A stretch of DNA of 64,000 nt. It comes from Fuerstiella marisgermanici. GTDB lineage: Bacteria > Planctomycetota > Planctomycetia > Planctomycetales > Planctomycetaceae. Below the pieces are notes generated by a model that had not been told where the DNA came from, searched no databases, and saw only the letters and a program-made list of their open reading frames with translations. A program made the position numbers and the translations under genes. Numbering within the stretch: the stretch's first letter is position 1; the number at the start of each line of letters is the position of its first letter. The stretch is from NCBI RefSeq assembly GCF_001983935.1, contig NZ_CP017641.1, positions 8,172,001-8,236,000 of the forward strand, read 5' to 3'. Shown here piece by piece: positions 44,513-63,898 of the stretch.

Positions 44513-45688
44513 CTAGAGCAGGCTCAGCGCGTTTTCGCGTTGTACGAGTGGGAAGTAGACCGTTTTGCCTCCTTGCCGGTGAGATTCGAAAACGCCGCAG
44601 ATCATTTCGACGGTGACAGCACCGGCATGGGCGTCGCAAAGTGGTGCGCGGTTGTTGTCGCAGGCGTCGATGAGGTCTCGCACGGCGAGGACATGGTTGT
44701 GTACGCTGGCAATGACGTCTTTTTGGTTCTCTGGCAATCCAACGGCGGCCGTTGAAATCGGAATCCACGGGCGAGGCTCAGCGGTTGGCTGGTACGGATT
44801 TCCGGGGGTGAAGTGGGCCACGGGATCTCGATCGATGTGAATGGTCACGGTGCCTTTGCTGCCGATGAGTTGCATGCAGTAGGCGTTTCCTTCTGTTCCG
44901 TCGTTGGCGATGGAATCGTAGTAGGCGACGATGCCTTTCTGCGTTTCGTAGCGAGCGTGCACTTCGTTTGCAGCCAGCAGTCCAAGCCCTTCTGCTCCCG
45001 GCTTGACGTCCTCCGCCGTGATGCGACGACCACCCTGAAGCATGATCGCAGAACATGATTTCGGTGCGCCAGCGAAATAGTGGATCAGGTTGACAATGTG
45101 ACTGCCAAGCACCCACAGATCTTCGCCCCCGCCACGACGGTCGCCTTTGCCGCGTCCGCGAATCTGCAGCAGTTTTCCCAATTCGCCATCTGCAATTAGT
45201 TTGTCGATCTGAGCCAACGTCGGGTGATAGCGGTTTCGGTGCGCCACTGCGATCGTCGCGCCGTGCTTCTTACAAGCCGCAATCAGAGCGTCTGCTTCTG
45301 CGGGCGTGCGACAGAATGGCTTTTCGATGTAGAGCCCTTTTACGCCCGCTTCAATTGCAGCCAACGCCATATCATGATGCTGATCTGCGTGACGCGGGCA
45401 CACGGAAACAAATTCGGGCCGCGTTTCCGACAGCATCTTTCGATAGTCTGTATATCCCCGATCGATGCCCAGCTTTTTCAGTTCGTTTGCGAGGCCCGAT
45501 TCATTGCCGTCAGCAACCGCGACGATTTCTGTGTTCGCGATCTTCTGCCAGACGGTGTCGAGTCCATGCCCATAGTTGCCTCGCCCCGTGTGTCCAATCA
45601 CGGCGACGCGACGCTTCGGCTGGGGACTTTGAGCAAATCCTGATGCAACGGTTGCAGAAGATGCGATAAGGAAGGAACGGCGTTTCAT
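44513..45688 (-). CDS. Exported Gfo/Idh/MocA family oxidoreductase
   Basis: The protein has 391 residues from the ATG at 45688 (MKRRSFLIASSATVASG, a Tat-like signal); a longer start at 45742 is less likely. The Rossmann part has VAVIGHTGRGNYGHG, VAVADGNESG, VSVCPRHADQHH and IEKPFCRTPAEA (EKP motif). The substrate domain has GSHIVNLIHYFAG and ISTAAVGLPENQKD. It probably acts on a sugar or cyclitol in the periplasm. It is transcribed in the same direction as, but 206 bases from, the SGNH fusion gene. Confidence 0.9.
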   Translation of the reverse strand: MKRRSFLIASSATVASGFAQSPQPKRRVAVIGHTGRGNYGHGLDTVWQKIANTEIVAVADGNESGLANELKKLGIDRGYTDYRKMLSETRPEFVSVCPRHADQHHDMALAAIEAGVKGLYIEKPFCRTPAEADALIAACKKHGATIAVAHRNRYHPTLAQIDKLIADGELGKLLQIRGRGKGDRRGGGEDLWVLGSHIVNLIHYFAGAPKSCSAIMLQGGRRITAEDVKPGAEGLGLLAANEVHARYETQKGIVAYYDSIANDGTEGNAYCMQLIGSKGTVTIHIDRDPVAHFTPGNPYQPTAEPRPWIPISTAAVGLPENQKDVIASVHNHVLAVRDLIDACDNNRAPLCDAHAGAVTVEMICGVFESHRQGGKTVYFPLVQRENALSLL

Positions 45689-45894
45689 AACAACGAAGCC
45701 TGCTGATGCGGCCGCAGACGTGAGACGCGGCTGAAAGGTCAACTATTGCTCAACGTGAATTATGCATGCTAACGCGACCAGCGTGAATCTTCTATTCAGC
45801 AGACCATGTGGTGACGGTTGTTGCTGGCGGTGTCCCGGTTGCAGTTGTGTGCGACTGATTCGCAAGGCATTTTTGGAAGAGCGTCTTGCAAAGA

Positions 45895-48800
45895 TCAGAA
45901 ACCGGTGTTTGGATACCAGCGGCTATAGTGGTTGTTGCCAAGACGCGTTAGAGGAGTGGTGACGGGCTTGTACAGAAGTGATCCATCGCGGACCTTCTGG
46001 CGATGCCCCAGTTTGGACACCAGGGGCCAATAGGGATTCTTGCCACTTTGCCATTCGACGAATTGGTTAGGGTCCCACACGGCAATACCGTCCGCTCCGT
46101 CGTCATAGTTGGTGGCGACTTTGCTCAGCAAGTCTGACGCACTCTTCATTTTCCACCCGACATAAAACGGATAGATCGTCACGTCGGTGCCTTCAGTGAT
46201 GCGAGCGTAGTAGGCCGTGTCGCCTGATTTCGTTTTTAGTCCGCTGGTGTAGTAGGCAAACCAGGCGATGCCGATCTGGTCGATCAGCTTTTCTTCAATC
46301 CACTTTTCCACATCGATCCCGAATTTTCGATTGTCTGCAGCCGTCGCAAACGTTGTTACCGCCAGCTTCAATCGAAGGCCCGCTCTGCCCTGCTTTTCTG
46401 CCGTTTCGTCCAGCAACTTACGAATCTTTCGCATGAAGCCGGTCACAATTTCCGCCCTCATTTCGAAAACCCTTGGATCGTCTTCCGCAAGTTTCCGCGG
46501 GTCTTCGCCAAATTTTTGGATGAATCGTTTACAGAATGGTTCCTCCCACAGAATCATTGGCATGCCTCGGTGGAACATGAACCCTGCTCCATCCGGTTCG
46601 CGCTGCAGCACTTCGCGGTAGACGTCCAGTAGGTGATCCTGAACTTCTTCTGCGGCGTAGCTCATGTGCATCGTGGGCGTTCCGTCGTGATCGACACAAC
46701 GCCATTCCGGGTGAGCCTCGTAGAATTCGCTCATGAAGAACTCTTCCCACGGCGGCGCGCCCTTCCAGCCAGCAGCTCGCAAGCAGACAAGAATTTCCGC
46801 GTCCTGCGCGTGAGCCTCTTCGACCGCAACTTTCAGCGGATCAATACCCTGCTGCAGCAAGTGCCGGACGGACTCGACGTATTCGCGATCTACGGATCGT
46901 GGGAAGGTGTCGAGGTGGCCTCCCATCAGATTTCCAACTTTGGTGGGATGATGCACAAGGTCCGCTCCACCGACCTGAAACCACCACGTCTTGAAGTCGC
47001 TGTCGCGGTAGCCAGAAAACGTCGCCGCAAGGTCCGCTCGGTTTTGCGGCCGAAACGGGTGGATCCATGTGAATCCGTCGAACGTTGCAACCGAGGTTTT
47101 TGTCGCTGTTTGTTGACGGTCTGCCAGCACTTCGGCGACTTCTGATTCGGTAAGCGGGACTGTCTTTACATAGTGAATTCGCGCTGGCATTTCGTAGACC
47201 GTCGAAAAGTGCAGATCGTTCCCTGTTAAGTCTGCCACACCCAGAAAAATTTCTTCCAGCACGTCCCGCCGCCTCGATCCCAGGTCAAGCCGGTTGCTGA
47301 GACGCGTGTAGGCGGGATCGTTTGTGAGTTTCACTTCAACATTGTTTTTGTCCGGCCGGACCAGATCCGTGATGGTGCTAAGTCCAACGTAGACGGCGTG
47401 CCAGCCCTGCTTGCCAAGCTTCAGTGTCAGGTCGGGAGCCGACGATTCCCGGCCGACGGAAACACACTTCCCGGAGAAGTCTGCGGTTTCGTATTCGAAT
47501 ACTTTCCACTTCGCATGCTCACGACGCTTCGACAGACCGTCTGCAGGCGTGCAAGCAGTCATGTCCGTCATTAGTTCCGCCTTTGCGGCGTTCTGCCACT
47601 GAGATGAGTGCGCAAACGGAATCTGTTCATTCAGTGGCCGGCTGACGGTTTCGCTACTTACCTGGAAGCCAGCGAAACTGAAATCCGGTTCCTGCGGATG
47701 CATGACTCCACCGACGACGAAATATCCAGAACCCGAATGTTCGACGACGAGTTTGTGGATCACGGATTGTGGTTTTCCGTTAAGCAACGCCCTGCAATCG
47801 ACTTCGGATTCAATTCCACGACTGTTCGGATTCGGCACGGCACTTCCGGACGCCAGTGTCTTGCCTGAAATGTCGTGAAGGCTGTACCGGACATTTCCGC
47901 CTTTCAACGACGTCCCGGTGATGCGAAAGGCGACACTCGAAACAGTGGCAGCGCGTCTCGTGTTTGTAGGGGCGACGAACCGAAAGATAAGCTTGTCAGC
48001 CCGAGGATCTGCGCAATCGACCTGCGAACTTGGATCGTAGAAGCCCACGGTGTCGGAGGAACTTTCGATCAGCAGACCGACGGGATCAGGCAGCGGCGCA
48101 ACAGTGGTGTTTGCAGCCGTTGGCTTTGTGAAGCCTGTAAATGGTACATCAAATGTGCCGACCCAGGCCTGGACTGGTTCGGTGTGTTGAGGCGGTGGAT
48201 TAGACACGTAGTCTTCAAAACGTACAGTCGTCGCACCGGTCATCGGTTGGCGAATGCTGGAGTCTGCCGGGTTATCAAGGACTCTAATTTCGACGGCAGA
48301 TTTGCTCACGCGACTATTCAGTGCTTTCAGCTTCTGCAGTTGAGTGATCAACTGGTCCGCGACGATGCGATGGCCATGCTTGTTGGGATGAATGCCATCC
48401 AGCAGAAGGTCGTCGATGCTGTTCCCATCAGTTTCGCCGTAGTGTTCGAAGCTGCGATAAATGTCGATCAAAGGCACCATCTCAGCTTTGGCCAGGTGCC
48501 TGACTGCTTCGGCGTATTCCTGCAACTTAACGTTGAATCCGTTGGGTTCGTCGGCAAGGTAAGGTGGCTTCCCATACATCTCTCGCATCTTTGGCGTCCA
48601 CCGCAGCGGGTTCGGTGTCATGAGAACGACCTGCACTTTGCGAGCTTTGAGTGTGCCGACAAAGTGACGCAGGTTTTTGACGTAGCGGTCCATCGGCACA
48701 CGCGGCGTTGTCGCGGGAGGATCTTTCCAAACGTCTACAGCAGCATCGTTAATGCCGAATTGAATGACGACGATGTCTGGGTTGTGGTCAAGCACATCCG

Positions 48801-49050
48801 TCTTAAAGCGGGCTTGCGCGTGATCTGTGTTGTGGCCGCTAATGCCAGCGTTCACAACGCGAACCGGCAGTCCCGTTTGAGGGAGTTCTCGTTGAAGGAT
48901 TTCGGCGTAGATCTCCAGATCGCCGCGCTTCGCCGTTGTCGAATCGCCAAAGGCGACCAGCACTGCTGGTTCCTGGGAGTTCGCGACGTTGGCGGACGAA
49001 ACGAACATCGCCAATATCAGAAGTTGCAGTCGAACATTGGTTATGGACAT
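45895..49050 (-). CDS. SGNH hydrolase fused to a GHL10-like barrel
   Basis: This 1,051-residue exported protein starts at the ATG at 49050. Residues 30-240 are an SGNH/GDSL esterase with all blocks: S37 in FGDSTT, Gly in NAGISGHNT, N101-D102 in FGINDAA and the D218/H221 pair in DGIHPNKHGH. A beta-rich middle (250-650) includes two adjacent sandwich-like parts. The C-terminal 380 residues resemble a GHL10/family-10-like TIM barrel: GGHLDTFPRSVDREYVESVR, EEAHAQDAEILVCLRAAG, PWEEFFMSEFYEAHPEWRC, and IYPFYVGW. It looks like one enzyme removing acyl groups and cutting the same glycan. Confidence 0.85.
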   Translation of the reverse strand: MSITNVRLQLLILAMFVSSANVANSQEPAVLVAFGDSTTAKRGDLEIYAEILQRELPQTGLPVRVVNAGISGHNTDHAQARFKTDVLDHNPDIVVIQFGINDAAVDVWKDPPATTPRVPMDRYVKNLRHFVGTLKARKVQVVLMTPNPLRWTPKMREMYGKPPYLADEPNGFNVKLQEYAEAVRHLAKAEMVPLIDIYRSFEHYGETDGNSIDDLLLDGIHPNKHGHRIVADQLITQLQKLKALNSRVSKSAVEIRVLDNPADSSIRQPMTGATTVRFEDYVSNPPPQHTEPVQAWVGTFDVPFTGFTKPTAANTTVAPLPDPVGLLIESSSDTVGFYDPSSQVDCADPRADKLIFRFVAPTNTRRAATVSSVAFRITGTSLKGGNVRYSLHDISGKTLASGSAVPNPNSRGIESEVDCRALLNGKPQSVIHKLVVEHSGSGYFVVGGVMHPQEPDFSFAGFQVSSETVSRPLNEQIPFAHSSQWQNAAKAELMTDMTACTPADGLSKRREHAKWKVFEYETADFSGKCVSVGRESSAPDLTLKLGKQGWHAVYVGLSTITDLVRPDKNNVEVKLTNDPAYTRLSNRLDLGSRRRDVLEEIFLGVADLTGNDLHFSTVYEMPARIHYVKTVPLTESEVAEVLADRQQTATKTSVATFDGFTWIHPFRPQNRADLAATFSGYRDSDFKTWWFQVGGADLVHHPTKVGNLMGGHLDTFPRSVDREYVESVRHLLQQGIDPLKVAVEEAHAQDAEILVCLRAAGWKGAPPWEEFFMSEFYEAHPEWRCVDHDGTPTMHMSYAAEEVQDHLLDVYREVLQREPDGAGFMFHRGMPMILWEEPFCKRFIQKFGEDPRKLAEDDPRVFEMRAEIVTGFMRKIRKLLDETAEKQGRAGLRLKLAVTTFATAADNRKFGIDVEKWIEEKLIDQIGIAWFAYYTSGLKTKSGDTAYYARITEGTDVTIYPFYVGWKMKSASDLLSKVATNYDDGADGIAVWDPNQFVEWQSGKNPYWPLVSKLGHRQKVRDGSLLYKPVTTPLTRLGNNHYSRWYPNTGF

Positions 49051-49153: not shown

Positions 49154-51511
49154 CTACGTCAGGCGTTTGAATCCTGTATGTTTGACCGGGCTACCGATCC
49201 GTCCAGCGACATCTCTGGAATCGATCGCTTCTTTCAGCTCGGAAAATACTTCATCCAGTGCCGAAAGGTAAGCTGTGACGTGTCGCGGCTCGTGGGCGAA
49301 TGTCGCGTTGAAGGCTGCGGCGGTCAGGTAACCTCGATCGAGCATTCGAACCGTCATCAGTGTGGTCAGTGCTGCAGCTTCGGGGTGATCGAAGGCCAGC
49401 AACGCCAATTCAGGACGGCCGGGCGTTTTGATCGGCAGCCCGTGCTTCTGTCCAAGTTGCTGCCAGCCTTCAATGACAAGCGAGCCGATTTTTCTGAGAT
49501 GGCTGGGGACATCGTGGTCCATCATTTTGCGGAGGCACGCGACTGCTGCGGCCGGGCCAACGCCTTCGGTCCAGAACGTACTGGAAATGAATGAGGACTG
49601 CGCCGCCTGCATCGTTTGGCGATTGCCAATGATGGCTCCGATTGGAAAGCCGTTGCCGAGTGCCTTTGCAAACACGGCGATGTCGGGGTTCACGCCGTAT
49701 TTTAGGTGAGCTCCTCCGAGTCCCAGACGCCAGCCGATCGATATTTCGTCGAAGATTAATGGCACGCCAAGGTTGTCGCACCGCTCGCGGACGCCTTCCA
49801 GAAAGCCCGGCTGTGGTTGCGTCTGACGAGTGGGCTCCATAACGATCGCTGCCAATTCATTGCCATGTTGCCTGATCAAGGCGTCCAGTTCGTCGAGGTT
49901 GTTGTAATGAAAAGTGAGCGTGTTGCCGGCAAGGTTTGATGGCACGCCACGCGGTTCCAGGCCGGGTAGAAGATGTCCGACCAACGCATCTGAGTTCTCG
50001 TCGTCGCCTGCGGCAGTTAGGTTGGCGGCCAGATACCAGTCGTGCCAGCCGTGGTAACCGCAGAGAGCGATCTTGTCTTTCCCGGTTGACGCTCGCGCGA
50101 TGCGGACAGCGACAGCCATCGATTCACCACCGGCTCGAGTAAATCTCGCGTTGTCGGCCCACGGATGAATCTTCAGCAGCAGTTTTGCCAGTTCAACCTC
50201 GTCGTAGGTTTGCAGAGTCGACATTGATCCGAGGCTGACGCGGCGCATCACAGCAGCATTCACATCCGGGTCGCTGTAGCCGAGAATACAGGCAAGAATG
50301 CCGCCCATGCTCATGTCGATGAATCGCCGGCCTTCGATGTCGATTACTTCGCAGCCACGAGCTTCCCGATAGTAGGCGGGCCATTTTTCCGGAGCGAACA
50401 TTTCCGGACGTTTGCTTAACAGTTGCGTGCCGCCAGGAATGATCTCAGTTGCGGAACGATACGCTTCCTGCACGTCGGGCATGACTCGAGGCAACGGCAG
50501 TTCCAGCAAACGCCGAGCTGCCAGGCAGAAGATTTCTTCCACATCGCCGTCGTTGAGGTGCTGATTGCGGCACGCCTGCTTCAATGCCAACAGAGATTCG
50601 ATCCCCAGAAATGTTGGTCGAGCAAATCGAGACTTGCTGAAGTCGGCTCGGATTTCATCAAGCCACAAAAAGCCGTCCGCCAAATCGACGCAGCGACTCT
50701 TCATTTCCGTGACGCAAAAATCGGCTCCGTACAGCAATCGCGTGGGGCCGAACACTTTCAGAATGGCTTCGAAAGCTTCTGGTTCGCAGACGGCAGACGT
50801 GTCAAAGAAGACGTTGTCGAGTCCTCGGAGTGCTGCAATGCCTTCGACCGTGTGCTTGCCACAGAAACCTCGTGCTGCGTGAGCGAGAACTAGTTTGGCG
50901 CCGGGATAGCGTTCACAGTGTTGGCGGATGTATATCTGATTCTGTGTTTCGGCAAGGGCTCGCGGAAGCACCATGTGCAGCATGATGACCAGACCGTGTT
51001 GATCGGCCAGTTCCCACGCCCATTCGGGGATGAATTCTTCCGTGGGGGCGAATAGATTGTCTTCACGTTCGGCGAACAGATGGTAGACCTTGAAGCCCAC
51101 GAAGTGATCGTCTTTGATCTGCTGCTCGACATCCGCTGCGTTCTGCTGCGGAGTGAGAATCATCAATCCGCGTGAATTCGGATCGTTCTTCATTTCGTCC
51201 GCGAGGTGCCGATTGGCCCCATCGACGTCTAATGCCCGTGTTGGAAACGGAAAGAACAGTCCCCCTGTCGGACATCGGTCCGGCATCCACATCGACAGTC
51301 GTTCATCATAGACCGCGCGAGTCACGACTTCAGGGCCAGCTGCCGCCAACGCCGGGGTTGGAACTCCAAGGTCAGTGACCCGCCAAAGGTGAGCGTGGGC
51401 ATCGAATACATCGGGCGGGACGAAGTTCCTGAGGTGCCGATCCCACAAATCCAGATCGTAGTCTTCGACAGGAGCCCAGACATACGGGTTTACTTCGGCG
51501 TCGGTGCTCAT
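49154..51511 (-). CDS. Amidohydrolase fused to a class-III PLP aminotransferase
   Basis: The protein has 785 residues from the ATG at 51511, one base after the previous gene's stop. Residues 30-350 are an amidohydrolase-2 (TIM barrel): DAHAHLW metal site at 37-41, KVYHLF, HMVLP, LVLAHAARGFC and YGADFC. Residues 365-780 are a class-III aminotransferase like glutamate-1-semialdehyde aminomutase: IIPGGTQLLSKRP, ARFTRAGGESMAVAVRIAR, GYHGWHDW, FDEISIGWRLG and Lys616 in FAKALGNGFPIG as Schiff-base lysine. No signal peptide, so cytoplasmic. Fusion implies the two steps are sequential. Confidence 0.9.
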   Translation of the reverse strand: MSTDAEVNPYVWAPVEDYDLDLWDRHLRNFVPPDVFDAHAHLWRVTDLGVPTPALAAAGPEVVTRAVYDERLSMWMPDRCPTGGLFFPFPTRALDVDGANRHLADEMKNDPNSRGLMILTPQQNAADVEQQIKDDHFVGFKVYHLFAEREDNLFAPTEEFIPEWAWELADQHGLVIMLHMVLPRALAETQNQIYIRQHCERYPGAKLVLAHAARGFCGKHTVEGIAALRGLDNVFFDTSAVCEPEAFEAILKVFGPTRLLYGADFCVTEMKSRCVDLADGFLWLDEIRADFSKSRFARPTFLGIESLLALKQACRNQHLNDGDVEEIFCLAARRLLELPLPRVMPDVQEAYRSATEIIPGGTQLLSKRPEMFAPEKWPAYYREARGCEVIDIEGRRFIDMSMGGILACILGYSDPDVNAAVMRRVSLGSMSTLQTYDEVELAKLLLKIHPWADNARFTRAGGESMAVAVRIARASTGKDKIALCGYHGWHDWYLAANLTAAGDDENSDALVGHLLPGLEPRGVPSNLAGNTLTFHYNNLDELDALIRQHGNELAAIVMEPTRQTQPQPGFLEGVRERCDNLGVPLIFDEISIGWRLGLGGAHLKYGVNPDIAVFAKALGNGFPIGAIIGNRQTMQAAQSSFISSTFWTEGVGPAAAVACLRKMMDHDVPSHLRKIGSLVIEGWQQLGQKHGLPIKTPGRPELALLAFDHPEAAALTTLMTVRMLDRGYLTAAAFNATFAHEPRHVTAYLSALDEVFSELKEAIDSRDVAGRIGSPVKHTGFKRLT

Positions 51512-51512: not shown

Positions 51513-53114
51513 CTAATTGCTTTCCACGTACAACGAGTACAACCTGGCGTCGCCGCCTTCCGGCCAATGGACTCGTACTGCAAACGGCCTGTTGGCGGGG
51601 ACGGCTTTTGACCAGACAACCGGAGTGCGCGTGCCGTCGTTGGAAACTCGCGCCGCGTTCTTACCGGAATAGTCTGGTAGTGGCTGATCAAACTCGTCAA
51701 CCAGTTCCACGGTCAACGGCGTTTCTGCGCTGACCGCGTCAACGTTCGCAAAGATCTTTGGAGCAGTCGCTGCCACGACGGGCGCCGTTACGATGTGAGC
51801 TCGGGACCCCGACACTTTGCGCGACAGGTAGCCGAAGCCGTCTCGTCGCATGGTTGCCAGTCCGATTTCCATGTTCTGCAGCTTTCCGCCGGTGTCCCAG
51901 TGGGAGTACCACATCATCGTCTGGTCGCCAGCATTTGCAAACGCGTGTCCCTGAAGCAAAGTAATGTTGTCCCATTCATTGTCGGTGCCTCGCGCGATGA
52001 CCTTGTGGTCTGGCACTGGTTCGCGGAAATGAATTCCGTCGTTGCTGACAATCAGTCCCAGGTCAATCGTCACGCCCTTGTTCCAGTACTTGCCGTCGGC
52101 CGGTTTTTTCTCCGCATCCTGCCACATGCCATGTAGCCCGACCATGACGTTGCCGCGATTCCACAAGCCAGCTCCCATATGAGTCTGCTGGCCCTTGATC
52201 GGCGTTGATGTCAATTGGCCTGTTCGAGCGAAAGCGGTTGCCTTGGCACTTAACCAGTTTCGGAAATCCGGCGAACGGTAAGTTAGCATGACTCGACCAA
52301 TGCGACTGCCGTCCATCCGCCACGACCACGGCGAAAGAAGTTGCCCTGGTGCGTAGTAAAAGTTTCCGAAACGATACAGCCCCGAAACTTCGAAGCGTTC
52401 TCCGCCCGAGTTCATTGGTCGATCGCCTACAACCTTCCAACTCAGTCCGTCAGCACTGGTCGCAGCGACAAAAGCGCCCCACCGGCCTTCGTCGGGACCG
52501 ATGCCACTTCGTCCACCGCGGACATCATCAAAGGAAGGGTGTGCGATGTAGACGCACTTGTAACGTTGCTGTGGGTCAGGGGCGTCAGGTTCATGAAGGA
52601 CAGACAGGAAGTCATTGACCTTCGCAAGTGATGGTACTTCTGACGTGATCTGGCAGATGTTGTTCTGTTTATTCCCGTTAAAGTCGACGAGTCCCAGCTT
52701 TGGTTTCGTCCAGTGAATTCCGTCGTCACTTTCTGCGTAGCACATCGGCCGCCACCAACCAGGAGCCTGGCCGGATTCAACTTTCGCTTCGAACATCCCC
52801 AGGTACCACATCCGAAACTTTCCGGCTTCGTGCAGCACCGTGCCATACAGAATTGCGTGCCCGTGATCAGGGCTGCCTTCCGGCCCGCGGCGCAGCACGG
52901 GATTGGCTGGATGCTTCTCCGCAGTGACCGGAGTTACCACAACATTATCACGCCACGGGATGGCATGGTCGTCGAACGAAAACAAAACCGCTTCACTGGT
53001 TTGCGGTCCGCCGTCGACGGAAACCTGGCCGAAAGCGTTTATGGACAGTGTGACGGTCACCGCGGTTGTAATCAGCAAGTTCCAGATGTGCCGTGCTGCG
53101 TTATATGGCGTCAT
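51513..53114 (-). CDS. Secreted beta-propeller hydrolase-like protein
   Basis: The protein has 533 residues from the ATG at 53114; an upstream extension to 53306 is rejected because it overlaps the previous gene and precedes the signal peptide. After the signal comes a five-bladed-propeller style domain, with GTVLHEAGKFRMWYLGMF, CYAESDDGIHWTKPKLGL and GLIVSNDGIHFREP, repeats found in GH43/GH32-like proteins of planctomycetes. No catalytic triad could be assigned. A C-terminal beta domain ends VHWPEGGDARLYSLYVE. It parallels the next gene upstream, suggesting an old duplication. Confidence 0.8.
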   Translation of the reverse strand: MTPYNAARHIWNLLITTAVTVTLSINAFGQVSVDGGPQTSEAVLFSFDDHAIPWRDNVVVTPVTAEKHPANPVLRRGPEGSPDHGHAILYGTVLHEAGKFRMWYLGMFEAKVESGQAPGWWRPMCYAESDDGIHWTKPKLGLVDFNGNKQNNICQITSEVPSLAKVNDFLSVLHEPDAPDPQQRYKCVYIAHPSFDDVRGGRSGIGPDEGRWGAFVAATSADGLSWKVVGDRPMNSGGERFEVSGLYRFGNFYYAPGQLLSPWSWRMDGSRIGRVMLTYRSPDFRNWLSAKATAFARTGQLTSTPIKGQQTHMGAGLWNRGNVMVGLHGMWQDAEKKPADGKYWNKGVTIDLGLIVSNDGIHFREPVPDHKVIARGTDNEWDNITLLQGHAFANAGDQTMMWYSHWDTGGKLQNMEIGLATMRRDGFGYLSRKVSGSRAHIVTAPVVAATAPKIFANVDAVSAETPLTVELVDEFDQPLPDYSGKNAARVSNDGTRTPVVWSKAVPANRPFAVRVHWPEGGDARLYSLYVESN

Positions 53115-55812: not shown

Positions 55813-56551
55813 ACTCCTGTCCTCGCAGCAGCGCATAGTGCGGTTTTTCTGCGGAGGGGGCTGTCCACCGCGAGCGTGAGGACATGTAGTGAACCGCCAG
55901 GCCGCGCCGAGGTTGGTCGGTTTGGTTGGGGCCGGATCGGTGTAACAGCATGCTATGGTGAAACGAACAGCTTCCGGCTGCCAGTTCATTGGGAACCTCA
56001 CGAGCCAAGTCGATCTGTTCCGCGCGGACCTGCATGTCAACTCGGTCGCCCACCTGCCAGGGCTGATCGTGATCGAGTAGTTCGCCATTGTGGCTGCCGG
56101 GGATCACCCACAGGCAGCCATTGTCGATGGTGGCGTTGTCGAGAGCCGTCCAGCACGTCACGATTTCTCGTGGTTCAATTGTGAAGTAAGCAGAGTCCTG
56201 ATGGTAAGGCTTTTCCACCCCACCCGGCGGCTTCATAAAACACTGGCTGCCGAAGAGTTTGATGTCCGGTCCAATCAATGATTCTACGACGTCGAGGATT
56301 TGGGGATTTGTTGCATGTGCCATAAAGACTTCGTCATGCTGGGCACACTGATTAATCTTCCGAGCGACAGAAGATCCAGGTTCGTATTCGATGTTGTCTT
56401 TTGGGAACGACGGCACCTGCCCCGCCGAGATTTCGGTCATGCGGTCTCTGAGTTTTTGTAGCTCAGCCGCCGAAAGAACTTCATTCACGACGACATAGCC
56501 GTCGTTTTTGTATTGCGTGAGAGTCGTTTCATCTACAGCGGGCATATTCAA
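55796..56551 (-). CDS. Phytanoyl-CoA dioxygenase family protein
   Basis: This 251-residue cytoplasmic Fe(II)/2-oxoglutarate dioxygenase has the iron ligands H117 and D119 in PYHQDSAYF and distal H204 in LLHRSGPNQ, with R216 placed to bind 2-oxoglutarate. DNATIDNGCLWVIPGSH is the conserved strand between. Bacterial PhyH proteins hydroxylate small metabolites, including ectoine and amino acids, so the substrate here is open. It starts 18 bases after the aldolase gene stop. Confidence 0.9.
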   Translation of the reverse strand: MNMPAVDETTLTQYKNDGYVVVNEVLSAAELQKLRDRMTEISAGQVPSFPKDNIEYEPGSSVARKINQCAQHDEVFMAHATNPQILDVVESLIGPDIKLFGSQCFMKPPGGVEKPYHQDSAYFTIEPREIVTCWTALDNATIDNGCLWVIPGSHNGELLDHDQPWQVGDRVDMQVRAEQIDLAREVPNELAAGSCSFHHSMLLHRSGPNQTDQPRRGLAVHYMSSRSRWTAPSAEKPHYALLRGQEYEGCV

Positions 56552-56569: not shown

Positions 56570-57337
56570 TTATTGACTTGCCTGGTCAACTGCGGCGGTG
56601 ATCGCCGAAAAACGCTGAACCAGCAACCCTGAGACAGTACCAATCCACAGAAAAGAATCACCTTGAGCTCGCAAAGCCGGGGCATCCGTCCCGATCCACA
56701 GCTTCTTTCCAGCAGCCGTGGCCGCTTCTCGAATTCTCTGGATGGCTTGTTGGTGTTCAGCGTTGTCTGGATCCCAACAGCAACCCAGATCCGCCGATAG
56801 ATCGTATGGTCCAAGCCCAACAGCCGTCGTCAGCGGGTGGGCCGCAATGGAATTGACATTGTCAACACCCACTCGCGATTCGATCTGCGGGATCACAATG
56901 AAGTGATCTTCAAACTGGTCTCGCCAGCTAGTGTAGTGGAAATCGCTCATCCAAAAATTTCCCATCCCGCCGGGGCGACGCTTTCCTCGCGGCGGCATCT
57001 GAATGGCGTCGCGGACCGCGTCGAGTTGACTTGCGGATTCGATATTGGGCAACAGCAATCCGCAGGGCCCGAGATCGATCGCTCGACGGATTTCTGAAAG
57101 CTCACAGGAAACCGTTCGCATCAGCACGGGGAAGTCCGCCAGCCTCGCGACCTGACAAACCTGTGCGACTGTTTCGTCAGTGTGGCACCCGTGTTCGCGA
57201 TCGAGCACCAGGTAGTCCAGTCCGCCGAGTTTGCAGATTTCAACCAGCAGTGGCCAGACATGGTCTGTGGCCATCACACCGATCACCGGCTCAGTCGTGG
57301 CCAGTTTCTCTCGAAGTCGAATCGCGGGAGTGAGCAT
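56570..57337 (-). CDS. HpcH/HpaI-type aldolase
   Basis: The 255-residue protein matches class II HpaI aldolases, which reversibly cleave 2-keto-3-deoxy sugar acids or 4-hydroxy-2-keto acids into pyruvate and an aldehyde. D46-R-E48-H49-G (LDREHG) contains the catalytic His; GLLLPNIES and IPQIESRVGVDNV include the metal and phosphate/pyruvate loops; LGPYDLSADLG supplies the metal Asp. It has no signal peptide. It lies between the sialidase-like gene (15 bases) and the PhyH gene, strongly suggesting an operon. Its presence points to a deoxy-keto acid in the pathway. Confidence 0.9.
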   Translation of the reverse strand: MLTPAIRLREKLATTEPVIGVMATDHVWPLLVEICKLGGLDYLVLDREHGCHTDETVAQVCQVARLADFPVLMRTVSCELSEIRRAIDLGPCGLLLPNIESASQLDAVRDAIQMPPRGKRRPGGMGNFWMSDFHYTSWRDQFEDHFIVIPQIESRVGVDNVNSIAAHPLTTAVGLGPYDLSADLGCCWDPDNAEHQQAIQRIREAATAAGKKLWIGTDAPALRAQGDSFLWIGTVSGLLVQRFSAITAAVDQASQ

Positions 57338-57352: not shown

Positions 57353-58513
57353 TTAATCGATTTTGCGATTCGGCTTTGTCGTGGCAGGGGCCGTCCAGAT
57401 TGTCACACCCATGTGGTAGCCGTCGTGGTCGGGAGTCTGTTTGGAATACCACGCCGTGACAATTTTTCCATCGGGGCGCTGCACGCTTGATGGGTAGCCA
57501 CAGTCGGCATTACCAACGGTGTGAGCCAGACGGACCGGTTCACTCCACGTAAGCCCTTCGTCGCTGCTCAACTTCGCACAGACTCCGCGCTGACCGCTTA
57601 CCCGCACACCGTAGCTCAACAGAAGCCGCCCGTCCTGCAGCCGATTCAAGTGTCCGTTGATTTCATTTCGTTCCGTGACAGACTTGGGTTCGCCCCAGGT
57701 TTTACCGTTGTCGTCGCTGCGGAACAGCTGCATGTTGGTAATACGAGCGGCTGCCAGCCATGACTTGCCACCCAGAGGAAAGATATTGGTTTCGTTGTGA
57801 TCTGGGCCGATGATCGAATCTGCTTTCCAGGTGTGGCCGTCATCGTCGCTGCGGAAGTGCCACGATTGCCATCGATCGGCCTTATAGGTCTTTGTTGAAT
57901 CCTGGTAGTGTCCGTGATAGCAGGACGCGTGCAATGCGCCGTCTTCTCCCGCCCAGATATCGCCGAACGGAACGTACTCATTCCATCCGGTTTCCGGCGC
58001 CGGAAATGCTTCCTGCTTTTCCCATGTGTGCCCGGCGTCTTTCGATCGCAGCACCCACGTACGCACTATGGCATCTCGATACGGCATCTGCTTCGGGCGG
58101 TCCGCTTGCTTTTCGTTCGTCCAGCCAGCGCAGAGAACGATGATATCGCCATTTTTGGCGAGACCGGCGGCACAATTCATGCGGATTGTGTTTGGTTCGT
58201 GCTGAGTGACCGTGCTGCGTCGTTCCCACTGCTCACCGTCGGAACTCACCCAGCAATCAATATCACCTTCGGTCAGTCCATGACTTGGCTTATTGAAGAT
58301 GAAGGCCGCGATTGTGCCATCCGGAAGCAGTGTTAGATTCGGCCAGGCGCAGACATTTTCGACAGCGACAATCTGCTGCCAGCGACTGCTATCGGTGTGC
58401 TCAACATTTTGTTGCTCATCTGCACCGGCGGTCGCGGCACTCGTAAGAATGAACATCGCAATGCAATGACGCAGCGGAATCGTGCGAGGCGTCGTCAGCG
58501 TATTAGGTGTCAT
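57353..58513 (-). CDS. Secreted sialidase-like Asp-box protein
   Basis: The protein has 386 residues from the ATG at 58513; the earlier start at 58588 reaches into a different upstream frame. A signal peptide (ending AGA-D) precedes a six-bladed sialidase-type propeller with four Asp boxes: SKDAGHTW, SDDDGHTW, SDDNGKTW and SSDEGLTW. The family covers exo-sialidases and many planctomycete proteins lacking sialidase activity; an Arg triad could not be firmly assigned by eye. It heads the operon with aldolase, PhyH and hydrolase genes. Confidence 0.88.
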   Translation of the reverse strand: MTPNTLTTPRTIPLRHCIAMFILTSAATAGADEQQNVEHTDSSRWQQIVAVENVCAWPNLTLLPDGTIAAFIFNKPSHGLTEGDIDCWVSSDGEQWERRSTVTQHEPNTIRMNCAAGLAKNGDIIVLCAGWTNEKQADRPKQMPYRDAIVRTWVLRSKDAGHTWEKQEAFPAPETGWNEYVPFGDIWAGEDGALHASCYHGHYQDSTKTYKADRWQSWHFRSDDDGHTWKADSIIGPDHNETNIFPLGGKSWLAAARITNMQLFRSDDNGKTWGEPKSVTERNEINGHLNRLQDGRLLLSYGVRVSGQRGVCAKLSSDEGLTWSEPVRLAHTVGNADCGYPSSVQRPDGKIVTAWYSKQTPDHDGYHMGVTIWTAPATTKPNRKID

Positions 58514-58575
58514 AGAGATCTCGTTTTCGTTGCGTGTTCGACGTGGTTTTGGTTTCGGCGATGGAACTGAGTAGA

Positions 58576-59319
58576 TCAAGCGGTGCACAGTTTCCGGCTT
58601 CGTACCTTTCGGTTGTCTCGGCCGGATAGACGGATTTCATTTGTGGACAGATCGCCGGGCCAGGCAGGGTCACTGCGAGTCTCAACGCCTCGGTATCCCG
58701 CTCGATTTGTTAACGGTTTGTGTTCCGACCTATGTGCTTCACGTCCAAACGCTTGATTCGCGTGGTTTTGTTTAGACCTAAAGAAGCCAGCTTCTGCCGA
58801 AGTGGGCATTACGCCAGTTCGGTGTGCGCGAACGGTGTCACGATCATTCGCGATGATGTATTGGCTTTCGGCCGAAGTGTCGGTTTGTCGAAACCTGAAG
58901 TCGCAGCGGTTGATGAAGCCCTCGGTGCCACAAACATCGATATTGAAGTTTCGCATGCTCGCCAGACTGTCGATTCCCGCGGTCGCGATCACTTCTGGAC
59001 ACGCTGCGGCAGCGAAAAGTTTGCTGAAGCAATCCTTCGGAGTGCACCCATGGCGGGGCTGGCTATCGACGTGTAAAACGTTCCGCACTGCCTGAGTGGT
59101 CGCTGATTCCGCTTCGTCGCGTTGCATTTCAAAGCGGCTGGGATCGCCGTAGGTATCACTACCAGGCAAACGGCGGTCAGGTTGACGTGTGACTGTAACT
59201 CCGCCGGTTGGCCCGGCATAATTCAGCCGCTCGGCCAGCACAGCCGTGTCGTAAGTGGCCGGCTGCAGCAACGAATTATCCCGATCGTTGTGATTCGATT
59301 TGCTGCTGGCGTCCTTCAC
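58576..59319 (-). CDS. Possible ORFan, unassigned
   Basis: A 247-codon open frame runs toward the sialidase-like gene. It resembles no family I know. The first 85 codons have codon use like real genes here, but the rest has many Arg/Asn/His codons and a competing plus-strand frame (58720-59076). It has no signal peptide or Shine-Dalgarno. It could be a decayed gene, a leader region or a chance frame in the 965-base region between divergent genes. Confidence 0.28.
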   Translation of the reverse strand: MKDASSKSNHNDRDNSLLQPATYDTAVLAERLNYAGPTGGVTVTRQPDRRLPGSDTYGDPSRFEMQRDEAESATTQAVRNVLHVDSQPRHGCTPKDCFSKLFAAAACPEVIATAGIDSLASMRNFNIDVCGTEGFINRCDFRFRQTDTSAESQYIIANDRDTVRAHRTGVMPTSAEAGFFRSKQNHANQAFGREAHRSEHKPLTNRAGYRGVETRSDPAWPGDLSTNEIRLSGRDNRKVRSRKLCTA

Positions 59320-59478: not shown

Positions 59479-60210
59479 ATGGCGGCAGACGCTCAATCAA
59501 ACGGAACTCAGGCAGAAGGTCTGGCCGCAACGCTGCGGCGCGAAATTCAGGAGTCGCCATTGGAAGATGGTGATTTCTTTATGACCGAATCTGACCTCGC
59601 AGAAACCTACGGTGTTTCGCGAACCGTAGCGCGGGAGGCCGTCGGCCGCCTGAAGTCGCTGGGGATGCTGGAAGGACGAAAACGCAAGGGGTTGATTATT
59701 CGTCGCCCCGATCCTCTGAAGCTGCTGACGCAAACATTACCGTCTCTGGTTTCGAACGAGGATGACCTTCGAGAGTTAGGAATGTTGCGTTACGCGCTGG
59801 AGGTTGGTTCCATCGAATTGGCGATTCGGAACACAACGGAAGATCAAATCCAACAGCTGTCTGAGGTCGTTAGTCAAATGGAAGTGGCTTTCGCTGACGA
59901 GAACGATGTCGAAAATTTTGTGGAACTCGACGTGCAGTTTCACGCTCTGATCCTGGCAATGACAGGGTCACGAATGATTTCCGGGATGAGAAAACTACTT
60001 GTAGACTTCTTTATTAAAGTTCCGCGTCGAGGCGATCTGGTGGCTGCGGCCGACCGAATGATCTGGGAGCACCGCGAACTTTACGAGGCCATTCAAGCCC
60101 GCGATGTGGAACGGGCACGAACAATGATCCGCATGCATTGCACGGAATGGTTTCGAGACTTACCAGATGACACGTCGCCCAATCGGGACGATCGAGGAAC
60201 GAAAATATGA
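59479..60210 (+). CDS. GntR/FadR family regulator with FCD domain
   Basis: This 243-residue protein has a winged helix (residues 12-75; MTESDLAETYGVSRTVAREAV contains the recognition helix) and an FCD ligand domain (90-225). The FCD metal site is complete: D151, H155, H198 and H220. FCD proteins bind small carboxylates such as sugar acids and usually repress neighbouring transport and catabolic genes. Its stop overlaps the symporter start as ATGA, so regulator and transporter are coupled. It is divergent from the catabolic operon on the minus strand. Confidence 0.93.
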   Translation: MAADAQSNGTQAEGLAATLRREIQESPLEDGDFFMTESDLAETYGVSRTVAREAVGRLKSLGMLEGRKRKGLIIRRPDPLKLLTQTLPSLVSNEDDLRELGMLRYALEVGSIELAIRNTTEDQIQQLSEVVSQMEVAFADENDVENFVELDVQFHALILAMTGSRMISGMRKLLVDFFIKVPRRGDLVAAADRMIWEHRELYEAIQARDVERARTMIRMHCTEWFRDLPDDTSPNRDDRGTKI

Positions 60211-61973
60211 CGCCTGGCCTGCACTGGATCGACTGGCTGATCATTCTTGTCTATGCCGTGTTGACAATACTTCTGGGGTGGTTTTACAGCCGTCGTCAGA
60301 ATTCAACGGAAGAATATTTCGTTGGCAGTGGTGAAATGAATCCGCTGTTCGTGGGCGTGTCTCTGTTCGCCACACTACTCAGCACGATCTCATATCTGTC
60401 GATGCCAGGCGAAGCGGCTGGCAAGGGGCCCGTGACGCTGCTGGGAATGCTGACCTACCCGGTGATTTTCATCGTGGTGGGCTACTTCTTTATCCCGATC
60501 TATATGCGACAGCGCGCCACAAGCGCCTATGAACTTCTGGAGCAGCGATTGGGATTAAGCGTGCGTCTGCTGGGTGCCACGATGTTTCTCTCACTGAGGC
60601 TCGTGTGGATGATGCTGTTGGTATACCTGGCCGCCAACGCAATGACGGTGATGCTTGGAGCGGACTATTGGGTCATTAATACAGAGGCGTGGTCCATCGC
60701 TGCCGGGCAATTTAACGATGCCGATCCGACCACATTGCTGCCGGGGCTATACCGGTGGGAGCTATCCGAACTGCGAATCGCGGCTGTCCCTGTGATTGTG
60801 CTGGTCACCGGTGTGGTTTCCGTGACCTACACCACTTTGGGAGGACTGCGGGCCGTTGTGATGACGGACTTCATGCAGACGGTTCTGCTTTTCGGTGGAG
60901 CGTTAATGGTGCTGGCAACCGTCACATGGAAGTTTGGTGGCTTTGGTTGGTTGCCGACGCAGTGGCACGATAATTGGGATTCGCAGCCGGTGTTTAGTTT
61001 TGATCCGCGGACGCGCGTCACCATGGTTGGCACGTTCCTGAGTATCCTGACGTGGTACGTTGCGACGTCTGCAGGAGACCAAACGTCCGTTCAGCGGTTC
61101 ATGGCCACACGTGATGCGGGCACTGCTCGGCGAGCGCTACTGACGCAACTCTGCGTTGGTGCACTCGTGGTTATTACGCTCCATTTGGTTGGCATGGCAC
61201 TGCTGGCATTTTTCGAAACCAATCCGGAAGCATTGCCTGCCGGAATGGGGCTGAAATCGGACGCGGACAAACTGTTTCCTCGTTTCGTTTCCTTCGAACT
61301 TCCGATCGGGATCTCCGGACTTGTCGTGGCAGCGATGTTTGCAGCGGCCATGAGCAGCATCGATTCGGGTGTGAACTCAGTCACTGCAGTCGTGACGTCC
61401 GACTTCTTTGATCGATTAGGGCGAAAGCCAGACGCGGAAAAAGGCAGTCTTCGTTCAGCAAAACTACTCGCATTGATCATTGGTATCATCGTGGTCGTTG
61501 GCAGCACGTATATGAAATACATTCCTGGCAACATCACAGCGGTTACGAACAAGACAGCAAACCTGTTTACTTCGCCGATCTTTGCTTTGTTCTTCTTCGC
61601 CCTGTTTGTTCGGTTCGCTCACCCCATTGGAGTGTGGGTCGCGACTTTGTTTGGCACCGTCACAGCGGCAGCCATTGCCTTTTCCGGACCGCTGGTCGTT
61701 TTTCTGGCGACGAACATGGGCGTCGACCCGCAAACGTTCGGCGTGGAATTAATGACTGTGATCGATCCTGGTACCGGTGAAGAACTGATCCGGTCCGCCG
61801 TGCGTGAAATGAATCCGGAATCCGGTATGCTCGAACTTGTCGCTCGCGACCCGATCAGCTTTCAGTGGATTGGCCCGGTGTCTTTACTAGTGAATGTGGC
61901 GGTCGGAGTCGGTCTCAGCTGGGTACTGCCGCGAAGAAATCTGGAGCTGGACGCGGCTAACGCTAAGGCATGA
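60207..61973 (+). CDS. Sodium:solute symporter (SSS family)
   Basis: This 588-residue membrane protein has about 13-14 helices and SSS signatures: GWFYSRRQNSTEEYFVGSGEMN, FATLLSTISYLSMPGE, VSVTYTTLGGLRAVVMTDFMQ and DQTSVQRFMATRD. SSS carriers couple sodium entry to uptake of sugars, sialic acid, amino acids or carboxylates. The FCD regulator fused to it in translation suggests a carboxylate or sugar-acid substrate. It may supply the HpaI aldolase and aminotransferase pathway encoded opposite. A strong hairpin follows the gene. Confidence 0.94.
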   Translation: MTPGLHWIDWLIILVYAVLTILLGWFYSRRQNSTEEYFVGSGEMNPLFVGVSLFATLLSTISYLSMPGEAAGKGPVTLLGMLTYPVIFIVVGYFFIPIYMRQRATSAYELLEQRLGLSVRLLGATMFLSLRLVWMMLLVYLAANAMTVMLGADYWVINTEAWSIAAGQFNDADPTTLLPGLYRWELSELRIAAVPVIVLVTGVVSVTYTTLGGLRAVVMTDFMQTVLLFGGALMVLATVTWKFGGFGWLPTQWHDNWDSQPVFSFDPRTRVTMVGTFLSILTWYVATSAGDQTSVQRFMATRDAGTARRALLTQLCVGALVVITLHLVGMALLAFFETNPEALPAGMGLKSDADKLFPRFVSFELPIGISGLVVAAMFAAAMSSIDSGVNSVTAVVTSDFFDRLGRKPDAEKGSLRSAKLLALIIGIIVVVGSTYMKYIPGNITAVTNKTANLFTSPIFALFFFALFVRFAHPIGVWVATLFGTVTAAAIAFSGPLVVFLATNMGVDPQTFGVELMTVIDPGTGEELIRSAVREMNPESGMLELVARDPISFQWIGPVSLLVNVAVGVGLSWVLPRRNLELDAANAKA

Positions 61974-62054: not shown

Positions 62055-62071
62055 GTGAGCCATTCATCAGG

Positions 62072-63898
62072 CTACTGAAGTCCTAACAGCTTCTTAGCGT
62101 TGGCGTGGTAGATCTTCTCAAGCACTGGTTCAGGCAAAAAGATGCCGTAGATGTTCCAGAAGCCCTGTCGGTGGTGGGATTCGGCCGTGTCGAAGTATTC
62201 GTCATCGGTCTCCATGAATCGATAGTAAAGCCGGTAGGCGTCGGCTTTGGGCGTTGTGTCAGTGCCGAACAGAATGCGATCCTGGTACTTGATGAAGAAC
62301 CGGCGGCAACTGTACGGTTGTCGTCCAAGTTCTGAGATGCGAGCATCAATGTCGACGTAGAAGTTCGGGTACTTGTCCAGCCACTTACCCACAGCTTCTA
62401 GGTTTTCCGGGTTGTTGCCGAAGTGAGCTCCGATGAACGTCGTTTTCGGATGTCTGGCGATCGCTCGATTTCGTTGTTCGAGCAGTTCTTCGCGGGTCGG
62501 AAATTTGTCGCCATGAAATAACCAGTTGGGATGATCATTAAGTTCGTGCCAGCGTTCATTAAACCGATCCAGTGGGGTGAAAAACGCCGCCGGGTCGGAT
62601 GTGTGAATCATCACCGGACGATTCATTTCGCCGCACAACGCCCAGATTGGATCCAGTCGAGCGTCGTCAATCCCCAACAGCTTGCCATCCTTGTCGCGGT
62701 ATGAAAGCCCGAGCGACTTATGAAACTTCAGCCCCTTGGCGCCGGCCTGGAAGCTCTTGCGAAGTCGATTCGTTTCTCGTTCTGTCCAGCCTTCGGATTC
62801 GAAGTCGCTAAGATTGATTAAGGCGAATGTCAGGAAACGTCCTGGATGAGCTTCATCCAGTGCTGCCACGGTTTCTTTCAGTTTGTTATCCCAGCCACCG
62901 TCCAGGTTGACGACAGTTTTGACTCCCGCGTCGTCCATCTCTTTCAGGTAGCGTTTCACTCGCTCATCGGTCAGCGTTTTGGCTCCGCCACCAAGATGGT
63001 TGTGCACATCAATGACGGGAAACGCGGGCGTGTTCACGCGAGTGACCTTCGTTTTCATCATGGACTTTGGCTGCCAGTCTGCCAGTTTAAGCTGCCGGAT
63101 ATCTTCCTTCGCTTCCGGTTCTTCAACTTCTTTCCCAAAGACGATCGTGCCGTACTTTTTGTGCTCATGAAAGCTCGGCCCAACCCGCGCCCAATCCCAG
63201 GCCGTGACCTTGTCGTCGTCATAGTCGACGCGATAAAAGTTGGCTCGCCATTTCGTGCCTTCCTTGGGTGGCACATTCTGAAGCGGTTCGAGGACGGCGT
63301 AGGGAATGAATACTTCGGCACGCCAGCCAGTGACTTGCGACATCGATTTCTGCTGCCCGCCGGTCACTGAAACCTTCTTCTGAATCTTCTTGTCGCCTTC
63401 GTAGTGCCATGGTCGCCATCCCAGAAACTTTCCGTCCAGATTCGGAACCAAAATCGGCAATTCGAATCCGAGGGGCGAAATTTCGTACTCAAAATACATG
63501 GGGTGTTTTTCATTCGTCCAGAAAAAGCACTCGTAGACGTCTTCGTTCCACAGATCGAGGAAATCCTCCTTCATCGTCGCGGTGAGCGTCTTGTCTGTCC
63601 CGTCGAACAATACGTAAACGCCTTTGTCGGAGTAGAGCATCTTGATTCGAGCGGTGTAGTCGTGCTGGCCTTTGCCTCGCGTATTTAGAGGCGTCCAATC
63701 GACGGACTGCCACTGCTTAGCATCGCCTTGCCCATTCACGCCGAAGTCTTCGCACTTCTTGATAATTAGCTTCGGTGTTGATAGCTTGGCCTCGTCCGCG
63801 TCTACTGGCTGAGCGAGTGTCCACGAGAATATGAAAGCGGTAAGTGTCGCTGCTCTTAATAGACGATGGTGTCGCGAAAGGCTGAATTGCTGGACCAT
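62072..63898 (-). CDS. CBM9-like domain fused to an amidohydrolase, exported
   Basis: The protein has 608 residues from the ATG at 63898, with GGAG upstream; an ATG at 63994 is less likely. After a signal peptide (ending VDA-D) comes a CBM9/DOMON-like beta sandwich (residues 40-255), with ARIKMLYSDKGVYVLFDG and VYECFFWTNEKHPMYFEYEISPLG. Residues 285-605 are an amidohydrolase-2: FPVIDVHNHLGGG, LKFHKSLGL, PVMIHTSDPAAF, FIGAHFGNN and LFGTDTTP carrying the metal ligands. Such a sugar-binding domain on an exported amidohydrolase suggests hydrolysis or decarboxylation of a sugar acid. Confidence 0.88.
   Translation of the reverse strand: MVQQFSLSRHHRLLRAATLTAFIFSWTLAQPVDADEAKLSTPKLIIKKCEDFGVNGQGDAKQWQSVDWTPLNTRGKGQHDYTARIKMLYSDKGVYVLFDGTDKTLTATMKEDFLDLWNEDVYECFFWTNEKHPMYFEYEISPLGFELPILVPNLDGKFLGWRPWHYEGDKKIQKKVSVTGGQQKSMSQVTGWRAEVFIPYAVLEPLQNVPPKEGTKWRANFYRVDYDDDKVTAWDWARVGPSFHEHKKYGTIVFGKEVEEPEAKEDIRQLKLADWQPKSMMKTKVTRVNTPAFPVIDVHNHLGGGAKTLTDERVKRYLKEMDDAGVKTVVNLDGGWDNKLKETVAALDEAHPGRFLTFALINLSDFESEGWTERETNRLRKSFQAGAKGLKFHKSLGLSYRDKDGKLLGIDDARLDPIWALCGEMNRPVMIHTSDPAAFFTPLDRFNERWHELNDHPNWLFHGDKFPTREELLEQRNRAIARHPKTTFIGAHFGNNPENLEAVGKWLDKYPNFYVDIDARISELGRQPYSCRRFFIKYQDRILFGTDTTPKADAYRLYYRFMETDDEYFDTAESHHRQGFWNIYGIFLPEPVLEKIYHANAKKLLGLQ

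Follow-up and report, generated by a model that had tools for sequence, protein, structure and literature searches.

We analyzed a 64,000-nt stretch of the Fuerstiella marisgermanici genome (the window; contig NZ_CP017641.1, positions 8,172,001 to 8,236,000), whose locus at 44.5-64 kb encodes an amidohydrolase fused to a class-III aminotransferase (AH-AT) together with secreted-looking propeller proteins, an FCD regulator, and a sodium symporter. The source genome is a single contig of 8.92 Mb. The window may hold part of a dispersed, co-inherited catabolic pathway for an amino sugar acid resembling the nonulosonic acids (NulO), a reading to which we give slightly less than even chances. That the genes serve a shared pathway is, taken separately, probable. 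A NulO-type substrate is a tentative proposal, made because the aminotransferase (AT) family is common to NulO biosynthesis loci. The preliminary description of the locus had suggested an esterified glycan containing amino or keto acids; the amino- or keto-acid part fits the kinship of AT with NulO-locus enzymes, and the substrate itself is what we infer.

The AH-AT gene lies on the minus strand at 49154..51511 (longest frame to 51700). In one frame, it joins an N-terminal Amidohydro_2 metal hydrolase (PF04909) to a C-terminal pyridoxal-phosphate (PLP) aminotransferase of class III with a HemL-like fold (PF00202). Its relatives were collected as 100 AT-bearing loci, comprising the best 80 of 586 AT matches and 20 regions (up to 20 kb) from the 37 AT-positive genomes among 392 of the Planctomycetota; selection was by likeness of AT, some species may be represented in both sets, and in many cases the contig ends close to AT. 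The two halves share a single open frame in 50 of these loci, are adjacent in four, and lie near each other in two. Fused loci span Planctomycetota, Verrucomicrobiota, Bacteroidota, Spirochaetota, Lentisphaerota, Armatimonadota, and other phyla. In loci L132 and L133, AT and AH are separate adjacent genes, and in L140 an AH-type match adjoins AT, as expected for partners in one route.

The PLP lysine is conserved in the AT half. In the AH half, the metal-type residues form the pattern D-x-H-x-H, K, H, H, D, which is kept in at least 95% of 57 sequences. The structure model of AH, with a predicted local distance difference test score (pLDDT) of 95, is an amidohydrolase-2 barrel. This fold and residue pattern are common to COG3618, the PDC hydrolase 2ffi, and dihydroxybenzoate decarboxylases. 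Because the structural neighbors of AH are amidohydrolase-2 lactonases, decarboxylases, and C-C hydrolases at only 11-16% identity, it is not assignable to one reaction. The AT half resembles glutamate-1-semialdehyde 2,1-aminomutase (HemL) in fold and PLP site and is 31% identical to the HemL of the same genome. Identity with HemL was rejected: the fusion scores 187.9 bits on the NCBIfam hemL model (cut-off 527.3), and the genome's own HemL, encoded at 65 kb of the genome, scores 623 (cut-off 527). The label of the best NCBIfam match of AT, PRK06209 (NF004856; 225.4 of 486 bits), was dropped because the same HemL scores nearly as high (214.7). Within the AH-AT clade of the tree, the verrucomicrobial genes of L003-L005 nest near the planctomycete group of the window, which suggests horizontal transfer.

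The link to NulO is provided by the AT phylogeny. The tree was built with genuine HemL as the outgroup and omits the outgroup rows L083 and L084, the near-duplicates L117, L124, and L125, and the short L016 and L032; its root is uncertain, given the great length of the outgroup branch. One branch with an SH-like approximate likelihood-ratio test (SH-aLRT) support of 99 has on one side 37 AT sequences, which share 48-56% identity with the window AT and, with few exceptions, stand alone. The window AT lies across this branch, outside the clade that sits beside NulO genes. Genes for NeuB, CTP_transf_3 (CMP-transferase), or PseB are found near AT in 30 of the 37 loci of this sister group versus none of the other 63, and 16 of these 30 show the gene order (Gfo or AKR)-CTP_transf_3-AT. 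An example is provided by L057, where PseB, PseC, and PseG score above the NCBIfam cut-offs and the NeuB/PseI-family synthase scores below them (331 of 400 and 292 of 340).

The two AT groups have their invariant residues in common. At 85% conservation, no alignment column separates them. A total of 65 columns are invariant in both, 31 of which differ in the genome's own HemL, the one HemL compared. The difference is in context: the NulO-locus AT stands alone, with (Gfo or AKR)-CTP_transf_3 and Pse genes as its neighbors, whereas the window AT is fused to an amidohydrolase. The simplest reading of this kinship is that the two groups would have amino compounds of one kind as substrates, the direction or the context of the reaction being opposite. 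We found no specific family model for the stand-alone class-III AT of NulO loci.

In pseudaminic-type loci L041-L079, which come from many phyla including archaea, (Gfo or AKR)-CTP_transf_3-AT forms a tight triad that looks like a step making an amino-substituted ulosonic acid. Kdo8N biosynthesis, with its dehydrogenase, aminotransferase, and cytidylyltransferase, would be an analogue of the triad; our literature search gave no confirmation of this analogy. In a published Legionella O-antigen locus (PMC3694923), a gene annotated as glutamate-1-semialdehyde aminomutase adjoins PseG and an acylneuraminate cytidylyltransferase.

The second line of evidence is the recurrence of neighbors in other genomes. 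The families found together are AT, AH, the propeller-type proteins BP2 and BP1, BNR proteins, the FCD regulator, an SSS or MFS transporter, HpaI, PhyH, Gfo/Idh, and SDR. L132 carries AH, AT, SDR, PhyH, Gfo, HpaI, a BNR-BP2 fusion, SSS, and GntR, and L019 carries BNR, BP2, PhyH, AH-AT, SSS, HpaI, AKR, and SDR; overlapping subsets of this cassette occur in L140, L141, L146, L147, and L154. Among close planctomycete relatives, GntR, HpaI, and AH-AT are found together in L123, L124, L126, and L127, and GntR, HpaI, a conserved beta-helix-like protein (named by eye, without a Pfam match), BP1, and AH-AT in L115-L117. DHDPS-family genes occur in the related cassettes L023, L025, L030, L036, and L147. 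In Bacteroidota, a SusD-family gene lies near AH-AT in L030, and its cluster covers five Bacteroidota loci; no SusC/SusD pair was seen among the scanned window genes, SusC itself being outside the scan.

The catabolic-type and NulO-type loci were compared where at least 7 kb flanks AT on each side (36 and 16 loci, respectively). The BP2 family is near AT in 10/36 versus 0/16, a propeller or beta-helix-like protein in 13/36 versus 0/16, and HpaI in 13/36 versus 1/16. Over all loci of any flank length, BP2 is near AT in 13 of 63 outside the NulO sister group and in one of 37 within it. The partner-gene queries were partly drawn from the same AT loci, so that self-matches occur there, and the additional regions, picked because they contain or adjoin BP2, SSS, Gfo, or HpaI matches, are a biased sample. 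The preliminary description had suggested one shared pathway for the whole locus. This suggestion is retained for six of the 11 listed genes (AH-AT, BP1, BP2, BNR, FCD regulator, and symporter), homologs of which recur together across phyla, and not for the rest.

The third line of evidence is co-inheritance in the Planctomycetota. Among the 392 genomes of the phylum, matches were found for AT in 37, BP2 in 48, SSS in 21, the cassette Gfo in 25, and the cassette HpaI in 18; at most two AT, four BP2, three SSS, five Gfo, and six HpaI candidates were scored per genome. Presence was called at a single fixed choice of thresholds (1e-60 for AT, BP2, and HpaI, 1e-75 for Gfo, and 1e-80 for SSS). The same family is represented by 27 genomes. 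In these, Gfo of the cassette type and BP2 are both present in 18/18 AT-positive versus 1/9 AT-negative genomes (p 4e-6), and their presence agrees in 27/27. When each genus and state is counted once, the AT-Gfo association stays at 10/10 versus 1/7 (p 6e-4). SSS tracks AT more loosely, being found in 16/18 versus 2/9 genomes of the family. In the other families of the class, AT-HpaI is significant (5/5 versus 2/8, p 0.02) and AT-BP2 is borderline (5/5 versus 3/8, p 0.08). Genome size is a possible confounder of these counts, as larger genomes tend to hold all these genes and co-inheritance could be inflated. One AT-negative exception, G105 (L146), has SSS-, PhyH-, BP2-, BNR-, HpaI-, and Gfo-type genes together with no AT match at 1e-60; it would have either an alternative amine step or an amine-free substrate.

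In this genome, a part of the cassette resides elsewhere. Orthologs of the cassette Gfo and SDR (54 and 60% identity) adjoin each other at 2.9797-2.9815 Mb, the Gfo gene at 2980522-2981493 being the single ortholog in the genome. Along the contig, ~5.2 Mb separate this pair from the window (3.7 Mb the other way if the contig is circular); the pair is accompanied by a HEAT-BNR protein and an aldehyde dehydrogenase. The signal-bearing Gfo/Idh of the window (44513..45688, minus strand, longest frame to 45742), previously proposed as a pathway member, is not the cassette Gfo and has only family-level matches in L014, L038, and L077. HEAT-repeat proteins recur, either as neighbors of cassette genes or joined with a BNR protein in one chain (L164:7791-9689, which is the 2.98-Mb region of this genome, L132:12196-13104, and L019:8915-9886).

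HpaI (56570..57337, minus strand, PF03328) and PhyH (55796..56551, minus strand, PF05721, an Fe(II)/2-oxoglutarate oxygenase type) had likewise been listed as members, and for them the link is one of families only. Measured against the L132 cassette HpaI, other cassette copies are 52-80% identical and the window HpaI 29%; among the six matches in the genome, the window copy comes last. The window PhyH is only 23-32% identical to the PhyH genes near AT or cassette genes.

Several observations weigh against the proposed pathway. Of the 24 genomes that have both AT and BP2, 20 carry them on different contigs or separated by over 20 kb (22.7 kb in G257, just over the 20-kb limit), and SSS is likewise mostly scattered from AT and BP2 in close relatives. 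Thus, the single conserved locus expected from the preliminary description, for which scattering in relatives had been set beforehand as the refuting observation, is largely contradicted; scattering refutes one conserved locus and not a shared pathway. Eight of the 36 well-flanked catabolic-type loci lack any searched partner, and neither L001, with the closest AT (88%), nor the Fuerstiella metagenome-assembled genome L009 has partners within 7-10 kb on either side; the AH-AT neighbors in L001 are GT61, a GlcNAc-2-epimerase-like gene, and ABC transporter genes. At 1e-60, the genome gave no cassette-type HpaI, its best match being 39% identical. Two associations lack significance, namely AT-HpaI within the family (9/18 versus 1/9, p 0.09) and AT-Gfo across the remaining families of the class (3/5 versus 2/8, p 0.29).

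The scattering and the partnerless loci would also be expected if there were no single pathway, the window being a hydrolase-rich planctomycete region where large families (BNR, PhyH, HpaI, Gfo, and SSS) meet by chance and AH-AT is a lone enzyme. A first look gives 33-62 Gfo candidates per same-family genome having a match, in agreement with such a chance assembly. We consider it improbable, given the cassettes in several phyla, the co-inheritance, and the distances: AT and BP2 are within 10 kb in 4/24 genomes against 0.22 expected, and in 3/23 without the genome of the window (p 0.001). The distance test used 31 of the 40 rows of the AT search, omitting two AH-only rows and seven AT rows under ~250 bits; none of the seven genomes of the latter rows has a BP2 or SSS match.

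BP2 (53204..54679, minus strand) is secreted-looking and has no Pfam match, and its structure model (pLDDT 90) shows a five-bladed-type propeller with a beta-sandwich, a fold that Foldseek relates to GH32/43/130/137; BP2 is probably a glycosidase. The adjacent BP1 (51513..53114, minus strand, longest frame to 53306) is secreted-looking and has no Pfam match; its distant likeness to BP2 suggests a propeller-like fold, and it is probably a glycosidase as well. BP1 homologs of 62-74% identity adjoin AH-AT in L002, L003, L028, and L115-L117. The BNR/Asp-box protein (57353..58588, minus strand, PF13088), a sialidase-like propeller protein, has homologs in L004 (54%), L025 (45%), L030 (44%), and L003 (29%). 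Only the Asp-box and short stretches of it align with sialidases. As a further point against a sialic-acid-like substrate, its homology to sialidases is at the Asp-box level and the arginine triad of these enzymes was not demonstrated; a RIP-like motif was not spotted by eye in the window protein.

The divergently transcribed regulator and symporter point to a sialic-like substrate by their nearest relatives only. The NanR subfamily is the best NCBIfam model for the GntR/FCD regulator (59479..60210, plus strand, Pfam), at 79 bits versus a cut-off of 260. GntR/FCD relatives with 45-63% identity lie near AT in L002, L115-L117, L123, L124, L126, L127, and L132, the value of 63% being that of L132 over the visible part of a gene cut by the region end. 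For the SSS symporter (60207..61973, plus strand, PF00474), the nearest solved structure is SiaT (5nv9/5nva; 176 bits versus 108 for the next), and relatives of the window SSS accompany genes of the cassette in L132, L133, L140, L141, and L146. The ligand-contact roles of SiaT residues are described in PMC5931594. Contrary to what a sialic acid transporter would suggest, SiaT Arg135 is replaced by Trp, Gln82 by Met, and Thr58 by Leu in the window SSS; among Thr58, Ser60, Thr63, Gln82, and Arg135, only Ser60 is kept identical, Thr63 being replaced by Ser. An Arg three residues before the Arg135 position is invariant in 8/8 aligned SSS proteins (the window and seven relatives). Nor did we find an assigned reaction for the NulO-locus AT on which the proposed substrate is modeled.

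The loss of most sugar-contact residues is one reason to consider a shared carbohydrate pathway whose substrate is not a NulO and instead some different 2-keto-3-deoxy acid, such as the Kdo or Dha found in rhamnogalacturonan II or algal walls, with AT handling some other amine. Among the fold matches of BP2 (TM-scores 0.16-0.60) are BT_0996 and BT_1020, which function in pectin degradation, and the best NCBIfam models for the window HpaI are the GarL/HpaI 2-keto-3-deoxy aldolases. However, HpaI is far below the cut-offs of these models, and such a substrate leaves the sharing of the AT family with pseudaminic/NulO loci unexplained, so that we regard it as unlikely.

For the NulO-like substrate, a nonulosonic (sialic-acid-like) or related amino-ulosonic acid, the following route can be proposed. 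The secreted propellers BP2, BP1, and the BNR protein would cleave a polymer to yield the sugar acid as a monomer, the SSS symporter would take this up, and the FCD regulator would sense the monomer or an intermediate. The AT half may remove the amino group of the sugar acid or swap it for a carbonyl, and the AH half may open a lactone or similar bond, in either order. The Gfo/Idh and SDR encoded at 2.98 Mb would do redox steps. Finally, an HpaI-type aldolase, or a DHDPS-family enzyme in some cassettes, would split a 2-keto-3-deoxy acid into pyruvate and an aldehyde.

PMC10570557 defines the canonical nan cluster by NanA, NanK, and NanE. Compared with the canonical nan system (NanA-NanK-NanE, SiaT/NanT, and NanR), the proposed route is similar in having a propeller protein, an SSS nearest to SiaT, an FCD regulator with NanR as the best model, and an aldolase of the pyruvate-aldolase superfamilies. 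It differs in the HpaI type of the aldolase, the mostly changed SiaT ligand residues, and the added aminotransferase-amidohydrolase core. NanE (PF04131) and NeuB (PF03102) gave no match in the genome, the control searches being positive in 8/14 and 9/14 genomes, respectively, and no DHDPS-family gene that could be a NanA-type lyase is among the scanned window genes at 44-64 kb. Since NanE and NeuB are not found, the system differs from the classical nan pathway, and recycling by the cell of its own NeuB product is excluded as well.

The same families could in principle form a phosphonate route of the 2-aminoethylphosphonate type, with PhyH as a PhnY-like hydroxylase, AT as a PbfA-like enzyme, and FCD as a phosphonate regulator. 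The top NCBIfam model for PhyH is indeed methylphosphonate hydroxylase (77 bits), and phnR_burk and PbfA are among the matches. All the scores are, however, far below the cut-offs (77.2 of 500 for PhyH, 112 of 525 for AT on PbfA, and 61 of 271), and a phosphonate-cleaving family is absent among the scanned window genes; on these scores the phosphonate route was rejected as very improbable.

All families named in the preliminary description are present at 44.5-64 kb (by Pfam, and by a structure model for one Pfam-less propeller), and its three fusions are real in sequence. Besides AH-AT, they are an SGNH esterase (Lipase_GDSL_2) with a GHL10-like C-terminal half (45895..49050, minus strand, longest frame to 49098), for which the GHL10 match of 24.8 bits is below the 27.9 cut-off, and a CBM9-amidohydrolase (CBM9 plus Amidohydro_2 by Pfam; 62072..63994, minus strand). 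Membership of these two proteins in the pathway, as earlier proposed, is not supported: the SGNH-GHL10-like protein has only weak matches (L118, L037, and L168), and the CBM9-amidohydrolase has no match among the AT loci and probably forms a separate convergent unit. A secreted-looking alpha/beta hydrolase (54937..55812, minus strand, longest frame to 56088; PF00326/PF01738, Peptidase_S9/DLH) had been overlooked; it too has no match among the AT loci, and its membership is unsupported. The Peptidase_S9 domain occurs in a 1301-aa protein of L002. AstE/AspA-type deacylase genes lie near AT or cassette genes (L023:10621-11571, L133:16786-17847, and L168:8348-9211); an N-deacylation step ahead of transamination is possible.

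On the minus strand, the run of nine genes that extends from BNR (57353) down to Gfo/Idh (44513) is tightly packed, with gaps of 1-257 nt and one 17-nt overlap at the likely starts, and the GntR-SSS pair is divergent from this run; given this arrangement, a single long transcription unit is plausible. The coupling of the regulator and the symporter noted earlier is borne out by a 4-nt overlap of these plus-strand genes. A 14-pair terminator-like hairpin at 62054-62020 adjoins the end of the CBM9-amidohydrolase gene, which is convergent to SSS, so this gene is probably a separate unit. Only this hairpin was used from the promoter and terminator scan of the window, as the hairpin total does not exceed that of shuffles (23 versus 22.6) and promoter and terminator totals are at chance level. 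A search for operators, covering palindromes upstream of GntR genes and AATASTATT in the window, gave no convincingly recurring site. At the left end of the window are IS66-type and DDE-type transposase genes (3-1418 and 4808-6631). Pairs of DUF1501 and PSCyt/PSD1 genes often flank AH-AT, BP2, or Gfo loci (39873-44339 in the window; L001, L002, L115-L117, L119, L130, L138, L148, L150, and L164); such genes are common in planctomycetes, and this flanking may be due to chance.

In its broadest form, the proposal is a new, NanE-independent catabolic route for amino-nonulosonic acids of the pseudaminic or legionaminic type, or similar amino-ulosonic acids, that would mirror the biosynthetic loci. 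Propeller glycosidases would replace CMP-transfer, HpaI/DHDPS cleavage would replace NeuB condensation, and the common AT family would be fused to a metal hydrolase, in dispersed, co-inherited modules of Planctomycetota, Verrucomicrobiota, Bacteroidota, and other phyla. As a whole, this version is doubtful. A literature search gave no description of the cassette; for pseudaminic- and legionaminic-type sugars, it gave no described catabolic route, being partly aimed elsewhere and covering few subscription papers. Glycan catabolism in modules is known, and the cassette with its AH-AT fusion family would be a variant of it.

Sugars of the pseudaminic and legionaminic types occur commonly on the surfaces of prokaryotes. 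The proposed pathway is invisible to a one-locus view, its modules being far apart in close relatives and yet gained and lost together. If the proposal is true, the AH-AT fusion would serve as a genetic marker of bacterial recycling of such sugars, and one purified enzyme would make it testable which organisms degrade them. These bacteria may then feed on sialic-acid-like sugars.

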